NCBI GenBank assembly: GCA_037138755.1
Contig: JBAXHT010000002.1
Location: forward strand, 372,001-436,000
Direction: 5' to 3'
Length of the DNA: 64,000 nucleotides
DNA from: Armatimonadota bacterium
GTDB lineage: Bacteria; Armatimonadota; Fimbriimonadia; Fimbriimonadales; Fimbriimonadaceae
Shown here: piece by piece, positions 52,664 to 56,791 of the stretch
How the letters are laid out: each line of letters begins with the position of its first letter
Numbering within the stretch: the stretch's first letter is position 1
Made by a program: the position numbers and the translations under genes
The notes under the pieces: generated by a model
Told to the model about the DNA's origin: nothing
Database searches by the model: none
The model's input: only the letters and a program-made list of their open reading frames with translations

Positions 52664-52690
52664 TAAAGAAATCTGATGAGGTGCCGATAA
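52664..52690 (+). promoter_or_regulatory. Sigma-28 (FliA) promoter for flgM
   Basis: TAAAGAAA (52664-52671), 11 bp, GCCGATAA (52683-52690). The consensus is TAAAGTTT-N11-GCCGATAA, so the -10 is perfect, the spacing exact and the -35 core TAAAG intact. Transcription would start near 52697. Confidence 0.88.
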
Positions 52691-52724
52691 CCGTAGCGTG
52701 GGAGAAATCTCACAGAAAATTTGG

Positions 52725-52815
52725 GACAGAAAACGGCACGACGGGGGAGACCCCGATCACGCAAAGCCTAAGGGTCTGTTTGTTGTATGACGAACAGAAA
52801 GCCGGGTTACCTGTC
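52725..52815 (+). ncRNA. Candidate cyclic-di-GMP-I (GEMM) riboswitch
   Basis: A leader RNA with the GEMM-I hallmarks: closing stem GACAG (52725-52729) with CTGTC (52811-52815); AAAACGGCA just inside; a hairpin CGGGG/CCCCG (52742-52755) with a GAGA tetraloop of the GNRA type; the invariant ACGCAAAGCC (52759-52768) followed by TAAG; a second hairpin TCTGTTTGT/ACGAACAGA (52775-52798); and the invariant AAGCCGGGTTACC (52799-52811). The classic GGCAAACC reads GGCACGAC here, so it is a variant. It starts about 28 nt after the sigma-28 start site and ends 22 nt before the flgM ATG, with no terminator after it, so control would be translational. Confidence 0.82.
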
Positions 52816-52837
52816 TGAGATCATTGGAGCAATAAAC

Positions 52838-53131
52838 ATGCGGATTTCAGATGCGGAAGTAAAAAAGGCCCTCAGTGGATTCACTGCGGTTGATCATGCG
52901 GCGGAAGTCGAAGCCCTCAAGCAAGTTCTTGGGGTCGAGTCGGAAGCAGAGGCCGCCGAGCGCGACGCGCTCATGGTTCGGGATCTCACCCGAAAAGTCC
53001 TAGACGCCCCCGATCGCGAGGACATGATTGAGTCCCTGAAGGAACGGATTGCGGCAGGAACCTACAACCCCTCGGCGGAGGACATCGTGGATACGATGGT
53101 TCGACGCGCGATTGCTGATCGGATGCGCTGA
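52838..53131 (+). CDS. flgM: Anti-sigma-28 factor FlgM
   Basis: FlgM binds the flagellar sigma factor FliA and holds it inactive until the hook is finished and FlgM is exported. The 97-residue protein has a disordered, acidic N-terminal half and the sigma-binding C-terminus MIESLKERIAAGTYNPSAED followed by IVDTMVRRAIADRM. Start at ATG 52838 with GGAG eight bases upstream. It is preceded by a sigma-28 promoter and a GEMM-like riboswitch. It is a lone gene, far from flgB-fliI (12 kb) and motAB (3 kb). Confidence 0.88.
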   Translation: MRISDAEVKKALSGFTAVDHAAEVEALKQVLGVESEAEAAERDALMVRDLTRKVLDAPDREDMIESLKERIAAGTYNPSAEDIVDTMVRRAIADRMR

Positions 53132-53135
53132 TCCA

Positions 53136-53169
53136 GTTAGCAGTGGGAGGTTAACTGCTCACTGCTAAC
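53136..53169. repeat. Inverted repeat between flgM and the nuclease gene (possible empty cassette site)
   Basis: GTTAGCAGTG (53136-53145) pairs perfectly with CACTGCTAAC (53160-53169). The interior is built of the same short unit (minus strand reads AGTTAGCAGTGAGCAGTTAA). The nuclease stop codon TAA (53151-53153) lies inside. It can act as a bidirectional terminator, but the tandem 7-mer structure resembles the ends of the motA-motB cassette. Confidence 0.75.
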
Positions 53170-53867
53170 TCTGCAACCACTGGATAGTGGTCGCTTGGCC
53201 AAAAGCCGTCGACTTGCGCCCGGATCACTTCAAGTTTTGTACAGCGAAAGTCGATCGAGCTAACCACGTGGTCGATCTTCTCTCCTTCGGTGCCGCCTCT
53301 AAAGTCGTGGAAGGTTCCGCCTTCGAGTCCAGCGGTGTGCAAGATTCCGGGGAGGGCGAGGACTTCGGGCCAGTCGGGCTCGGCGTTGAGGTCTCCGACG
53401 ACAATCCAGGGAGTGAGTGGCAAGTGGCGGTGGATCAGGTTTGCGCTCTTCTGTCTTGCTTCTTTCGATTCGTGATCCCAGTGGGTGTTGAAAAGGGCAA
53501 AGGTTCCAAAATCGACCCAGCTACAGATTCGGGTGATGTTGTTCCCCCAGCTTTTGCTTCCCGGTTCGTTCGGCGTATCGCTGAGCCAAAAGGTGCCTTG
53601 GTCGAGCGGAGCGAAGCGGCTCTTGCGCCAGAGGATGCTGCAGGCTTCGCCTTGGTTTTTTCCGTCATCGCGGCCGACGGAGTAGGCGGCGTAGTCGGGG
53701 AGTTGTTCGAGAAGATACTGGAGCTGGAAGTCGAGGTCTTCTTGAAGGCAGACGATGTCGGCGTTGGCTTCGCGGATTGTTTGGGCAGTGGCGTGGCGGC
53801 GCAGCGGCCAGGAGTGGTTGCCGTCATCGGCGAGGCCGTAGCGAATGTTGAAGGTGAGGATTGTCAT
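53151..53867 (-). CDS. Endonuclease/exonuclease/phosphatase (EEP) family protein
   Basis: A 238-residue metal-dependent phosphodiesterase fold: TILTFNIRYG (Asn of the active site), ADIVCLQEDLDFQLQYL (metal Glu), LFNTHWDH, WIVVGDLNAEPD (catalytic Asp/Asn) and KIDHVVSS with WPSDHYPVVAEL (catalytic His). No signal peptide, so cytosolic. Substrates in the family range from DNA to sphingomyelin and sugar phosphates; unknown here. Four-bp overlap (ATGA) with the upstream Pif1-like helicase gene, hence an operon. The last three codons come from the inverted repeat at 53136-53169. Confidence 0.9.
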   Translation of the reverse strand: MTILTFNIRYGLADDGNHSWPLRRHATAQTIREANADIVCLQEDLDFQLQYLLEQLPDYAAYSVGRDDGKNQGEACSILWRKSRFAPLDQGTFWLSDTPNEPGSKSWGNNITRICSWVDFGTFALFNTHWDHESKEARQKSANLIHRHLPLTPWIVVGDLNAEPDWPEVLALPGILHTAGLEGGTFHDFRGGTEGEKIDHVVSSIDFRCTKLEVIRAQVDGFWPSDHYPVVAELAVSS

Positions 53868-56431: not shown

Positions 56432-56791
56432 GTGCAACGATCCGACTTCAAGGATTTGAAGGTGTGGCAGAAGGGCATGAGCCTGACTGAGGATATCTAC
56501 GACATAACAGGAGCATTTCCAGAGTCTGAGCGATTTGGAATGACCTCCCAGATTCGGCGTTCGAGCGTTTCGATTCCAACAAACATTGCCGAGGGCCACG
56601 GTCGCGGATCGAAGGATGATTTTGCGAGGTTTCTTTACATCGCGCTTGGTTCTGCCCGTGAGCTTGAAACACTGTTGTTGCTTTCCCAGCGCATCGGCCT
56701 CATCGGCTACGATGCGCCCCACATTCAGCAAGTTCAAGAAATTAGTCGAATGCTGACCGCACTCATCCGAACGCTCAAGACTAAAGACTAA
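56432..56791 (+). CDS. Four-helix-bundle (S23 / 23S-rRNA IVS-type) protein
   Basis: A 119-residue protein of the TIGR02436/S23 four-helix family: FKDLKVWQKGMSLTEDIYDI (DLxVWQ signature), FGMTSQIRRSSVSIPTNIAE then GHGR, FARFLYIALGSARELETLLL. Members were first found in 23S rRNA intervening sequences, but most are free-standing genes of unknown function. Here it is inserted between motA and motB, reading against them. GTG start. Its last residues and TAA stop are read from the right inverted repeat. Confidence 0.9.
   Translation: MQRSDFKDLKVWQKGMSLTEDIYDITGAFPESERFGMTSQIRRSSVSIPTNIAEGHGRGSKDDFARFLYIALGSARELETLLLLSQRIGLIGYDAPHIQQVQEISRMLTALIRTLKTKD

Follow-up and report, generated by a model that had tools for sequence, protein, structure and literature searches.

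What lies between the promoter and the start codon of flgM, the gene of the anti-sigma-28 factor, in this Armatimonadota bacterium, and could it allow c-di-GMP to decide how much FlgM is made? We examined this question in the window, meaning the whole stretch of 64,000 nucleotides that was analyzed, and in the genomes of its relatives. A sequence-only reading of the window had placed a sigma-28 promoter, a c-di-GMP-I-type riboswitch, and flgM one after another at this locus. The elements that we recognize there are as follows.

52664-52690, + strand: predicted sigma-28 (FliA-type) promoter, TAAAGAAA-N11-GCCGATAA, 0 mismatches
52698-52713, + strand: hairpin GUGGGA-GAAA-UCUCAC at the inferred start of the mRNA, present in every predicted leader fold
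52725-52815, + strand: predicted c-di-GMP-I (GEMM-I) riboswitch aptamer, RF01051, with P1 formed by 52725-52729 and 52811-52815
52813-52822, + strand: predicted 5' arm of a hairpin blocking the ribosome-binding site (RBS), GUCUGAGAUC, i.e., P1 3' strand plus linker, from covariation (n=39)
52826-52829, + strand: Shine-Dalgarno GGAG, inferred from sequence and spacing to the ATG, in the hairpin loop
52838-53131, + strand: flgM, anti-sigma-28 factor, 97 aa (PF04316, E 7e-10, 39.4 bits versus a cut-off of 25)
52843-52852, + strand: predicted 3' arm of the RBS-blocking hairpin, GAUUUCAGAU, flgM codons 2-5, pairing with 52813-52822

The promoter is the single zero-mismatch match to the sigma-28 pattern in the window, agreeing with the consensus at 13/13 positions (-35 TAAAG, -10 GCCGATAA, sigma-28 spacing), while matches with up to 2 mismatches number 9 against 2.4 expected. 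Genome-wide, it is one of 2 exact matches, and the reversed control likewise gives 2; its PWM score reaches 26.4, compared with a 95th percentile of 9.2 among random 300-nt stretches. In the order, 69 leaders also have a sigma-28-like box (10/13 matches or more) 15 to 60 nt 5' of their aptamer, with the consensus TAAAGAAA, 11-12 nt, GCCGATAA. Transcription would start near 52695-52698, and relatives show 5' hairpins similar to that of the window, as judged by eye. FliA itself is encoded in the genome (237.9 bits versus a cut-off of 189.6). The sigma-28 motif precedes 2/5 flagellin genes of this genome (PWM 21.1 and 17.5) and a flagellin gene in G098 (PWM 25.2); the PWM scan found no sigma-28 site at motA, so the reach of FliA in this genome is uncertain.

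The start of flgM at 52838 was chosen by the conserved MRIS/MKIS/MQIS N terminus together with the Shine-Dalgarno sequence. An in-frame ATG at 52787 (+), inside P3 of the aptamer, opens a 114-aa ORF to 53131, and a gene caller may set the flgM start there rather than at the conserved 52838. Because the upstream neighbor is a HemN-like gene and the downstream neighbor is convergent, flgM looks monocistronic. A long inverted repeat, GTTAGCAGTG...CACTGCTAAC at 53137-53170, directly 3' of flgM, is possibly a bidirectional terminator. Elsewhere in the window, a gene at 56432-56791 (+) for a 23S rRNA intervening-sequence protein (PF05635, E 1e-36) separates motB from motA and is read from the strand opposite to theirs.

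By Rfam cmscan, the leader passes the RF01051 gathering score marginally, 35.3 versus 35 bits, over 52725-52814; the E value is 0.0034 when the whole window is scanned and 3.7e-5 when the scan covers 701 bases, and this is the sole match over the cut-off in the 3.27-Mb genome. The match covers positions 1-87 of the 87 in the model, with the layout P1-P2-P3 and a GAGA (GNRA) loop on P2. The aptamer motifs ACGCAAAGCC at 52759-52768 and AAGCCGGGTTACC at 52799-52811, the GNRA hairpin at 52742-52755, and P1, formed by GACAG (52725-52729) and CTGTC (52811-52815), lie at every coordinate that the sequence-only reading had given for them; its promoter is the exact match described above, with a box of this kind before the aptamer in most relatives, and its flgM is confirmed by PF04316. 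The P2 internal loop reads ACG/CAC, departing from the consensus AAA/GAC, and this change lowers the RF01051 score of the window. The same loop is common to most of the leader family f1, whereas family f3 and other classes are canonical, and the altered loop is not itself a ligand-contact position.

A score so close to the cut-off could be a chance match, and the linkage to flgM among relatives rules this out. The order sample comprised 113 genomes searched with RF01051, with matches accepted to an E value of 1, and 97/113 gave a match, mostly one apiece. Among 100 aptamer matches of at least 22 bits, 89 (in 88 genomes) lie 120 to 205 nt upstream of a same-strand FlgM HMM match, and 6 further aptamers precede ORFs matched by a profile of the linked FlgMs with E values of 1e-12 to 1e-18. 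The leaders of G023 and G071 contain aptamers missed by cmsearch and recognized by eye. The former additionally matches RF03167 below threshold; in the latter (L122), P3 apparently contains some 100 extra nt of a repeat-like character, which would be why covariance models miss it. Overall, the aptamer stands directly 5' of flgM in about 96/113 genomes, mostly behind a sigma-28 box. The remaining matches in the order are 2 weak ones and 3 canonical aptamers before S8 subtilases. These S8 subtilase-like (secreted) genes stand behind c-di-GMP-I aptamers of 67-80 bits (L006, L007, and L010, at G040:C5:746206, G010:C166:389, and G042:C15:29084).

Outside the order, we examined 80 Armatimonadota genomes with RF01051 matches; FlgM was found in 69, and an aptamer over the Rfam cut-off lies directly upstream in 58 (57-90 bits). 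Some flgM aptamers of the phylum match RF03167 best. Two groups of flagellate relatives, G053-G055 and G067-G068, keep FlgM with the aptamer absent, and FlgM and FlhA occur with no aptamer in genera g15 and g24, so the aptamer is not essential. With about 96 genomes in the order and 58 others showing the linkage, the Rfam and Pfam matches and the conservation across order and phylum support the identification of the promoter-aptamer-flgM unit.

How might this aptamer act on flgM? The helix GUCUGAGAUC:GAUUUCAGAU is predicted to loop out the Shine-Dalgarno sequence and the AUG. We compared 39 leaders of the window type over the P1 5' strand, the P1 3' strand plus linker, and flgM codons 1-7, all ungapped. 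The nine-pair helix between the P1 3' strand/linker and the early codons shows 96.0% standard pairs, versus 92.5% in shuffled and 27-46% in slid controls, and 11 double-change cells versus 1.9 in shuffled ones; its covariation score was matched by 0/500 shuffles, a statistic that kinship among the leaders inflates. The core helix has 264/273 standard pairs, while the maximum among 2000 permutations was 257. The best pair joins linker position 52816 to 52849, the third position in the Ser4 codon (U-A 32, C-G 5, G-C 1, G-U 1), and it is unbroken in 39/39 leaders despite 7 double changes. Changes at this codon position are synonymous, so constraint on the protein does not account for the covariation. 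P1 in the same 39 leaders is 98.5% paired, and because 52813-52815 belong to both P1 and the hairpin, the two helices are mutually exclusive.

Folding predictions make the P1 and hairpin folds of the window isoenergetic (-52.0 kcal/mol each). For the 164-nt leader, the minimum-energy fold has the hairpin and the centroid has P1, and the leader is predicted to be more stable than 200/200 shuffles (z -2.96). The predicted cost of opening the initiation region is 13.7 kcal/mol when the P1 strand is free and 4.3 when it is blocked, with 8.4 when that strand is shuffled. A narrow test over the Shine-Dalgarno to AUG segment alone shows no effect in the window, whereas the whole-footprint test shows one; the narrow test is blind here because both elements sit in the hairpin loop, not the stem. 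By the shared strand, the covariation, and the equal energies, the predicted RBS-sequestering structure excludes the ligand-bound aptamer, as in a translational ON switch, and the GUCUGAGAUC:GAUUUCAGAU hairpin is likely the expression platform.

We consider it likely that this leader, transcribed by sigma-28, is a c-di-GMP-I riboswitch acting on flgM as a translational ON switch. At the sequence level, sequence comparison shows the parts, the order in which they stand, how they are conserved, and that the hairpin covaries; from this we infer c-di-GMP binding, the direction of switching, and the effect on FliA and motility. Without ligand, the P1 3' strand and linker would pair with flgM codons 2-5 and close a loop around the Shine-Dalgarno sequence and AUG, and little FlgM would be synthesized as a result. 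Bound c-di-GMP would lock P1 and dissolve the hairpin, and flgM would be translated. FlgM would then bind FliA, and the late flagellar genes would fall at high c-di-GMP. FlgM switched ON by c-di-GMP would thus mean inhibition of sigma-28, and c-di-GMP usually opposes motility. Because transcription of flgM depends on FliA, c-di-GMP would tune the strength of a negative feedback loop and would not be a separate on-off control. The sequence-only reading had advanced this outcome conditionally, supposing that c-di-GMP raises flgM translation, and the predicted covarying platform and the same ON logic in other clades support that supposition.

The platforms of the other clades bear on the direction as well. 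An extra opening cost above that of the shuffled control is predicted in 43/43 window-type leaders, 7/7 of family f2, and 14/15 of f3, where the partner of the P1 3' strand is the Shine-Dalgarno sequence or its surroundings. For the 28 f1 leaders whose P1 sequences differ, pairing by the P1 3' strand does not hold (7/28); their Shine-Dalgarno sequence pairs with the P1 5' strand, with a mean of -12.4 versus -7.7 kcal/mol for shuffled sequence (23/28), a pairing that was not found in window-type leaders. Among leaders from outside the order, 38 seem to act on translation (31/38 above the control), and another 20 have a GUUUGCC-U-type element whose would-be 5' partner is the aptamer strand GGCAAAC, predicted to form a terminator that would be precluded once the aptamer is bound. 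Expression would be blocked in each clade only with the aptamer unfolded, which is why ON is predicted for all of them.

These platforms also weigh on the opposite arrangement, an OFF switch in which the c-di-GMP sensor lowers FlgM and high c-di-GMP would free FliA. The direction cannot be assumed from the riboswitch class, since in Clostridioides difficile every class I c-di-GMP riboswitch is an OFF switch (PMC6366702). Nevertheless, in every platform found, the blocker uses an aptamer strand, so that the folded aptamer excludes it. An OFF switch would also run against the usual opposition of c-di-GMP to motility, and we regard it as unlikely.

Another reading takes the leader of the window for a degenerate, nonresponsive relic, with the promoter alone controlling flgM. 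The score at the cut-off and the loss of the aptamer in some relatives are in line with it, but scores of about 28-45 bits are typical across family f1, and the window retains its contact bases, its P1, and the hairpin that covaries, which makes decay of this leader highly improbable. In Vc2 numbering, which we take to map G20 to 52735, A47 to 52763, and C92 to 52810, the ligand-contact bases G20, A47, and C92 are all present in the window. Leaders of the order have G at position 20 in 92/95, A at 47 in 95/95, and C at 92 in 94/95, and G20 is G in 58/58 aptamers outside it. The sequence-only reading had noted an altered region and left the ligand specificity open; the alteration stands, as the P2 internal loop, and the doubt about the ligand is reduced by contact bases kept in nearly all relatives, which favor c-di-GMP over cGAMP.

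The flgM leaders L090 (G027), L015 (G048), and L014 (G049) have A20 in place of G20, the base of cGAMP-type GEMM-Ib riboswitches, and ligand preference may have shifted in these three genomes. The genome of the window encodes 10 GGDEF domains, and the flagella-less relatives G016, G017, and G024, of one genus, are without FlgM, FlhA, the aptamer, and any GGDEF domain; these three retain a FliA/WhiG-type sigma factor barely above the cut-off (190-192 bits). That the window's aptamer senses another ligand, such as 3',3'-cGAMP, as the off-consensus P2 loop and the A20 of those three leaders might hint, is hardly credible given its own G20, the near-constant G20 of its relatives, and GGDEF domains that are present with the aptamer and lost along with it.

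Taken over the phylum, we also think it likely that Armatimonadota possess a dedicated c-di-GMP riboswitch dosing FlgM, so that c-di-GMP would control flagellar sigma activity through an mRNA leader. This device would have been rebuilt with several unrelated platforms (a codon-pairing hairpin, Shine-Dalgarno pairing by either P1 strand, and a terminator from the P2 strand), with ON kept throughout and a synonymous flgM codon position placed under constraint. Such platform swaps between clades at a constant predicted direction offer a natural experiment on the evolution of riboswitch output.

The aptamer family is already known. The sequence-only reading knew of no riboswitch-controlled flgM, and our search of titles, abstracts, and passages in one literature collection likewise found none on flgM, nor a paper joining riboswitches with Armatimonadetes/Armatimonadota. 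As far as this literature shows, the leader would be the first case of a riboswitch acting on the flagellar cascade's anti-sigma factor, and it would connect c-di-GMP to the FlgM-FliA checkpoint directly through RNA. In the predicted circuit, FliA makes the mRNA of its own inhibitor, and c-di-GMP decides the amount translated.

Several known systems share features with this design. The aptamer matches RF01051 and not c-di-GMP-I-GGC (RF03167), which is of the same clan. Synthesis of FlgM is also set posttranscriptionally by the OmrA/OmrB sRNAs of Escherichia coli, which pair with the early coding region of flgM and block translation (PMC12692685), and by CJnc230/FlmE of Campylobacter jejuni, which pairs with the flgM RBS to the same effect (PMC11187230); those are trans-acting sRNAs lowering FlgM, whereas the window has a predicted ligand-sensing leader. 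The flgM promoters are sigma-28/sigma-D dependent in C. jejuni (PMC11187230) and C. difficile (PMC5386303), so that there, too, a FliA-type sigma factor transcribes the gene of its own inhibitor; these sources describe no riboswitch between promoter and gene, where the window has a predicted one. Riboswitch control of flagella is known from Cd1 of C. difficile, a c-di-GMP-I riboswitch that precedes the flgB operon and acts as an OFF switch through transcription termination, with c-di-GMP lowering flagellar expression including sigma-D and its late genes (PMC5386303, PMC6366702). The aptamer class is identical, and c-di-GMP lowers flagellar genes in C. difficile as it is predicted to do here. 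Cd1, however, controls an early flagellar operon from a sigma-A promoter and works by termination, with flgM as merely an indirect, sigma-D-dependent target, whereas in the window the switch, predicted to be translational and ON, sits directly on the anti-sigma gene and follows a sigma-28 promoter.
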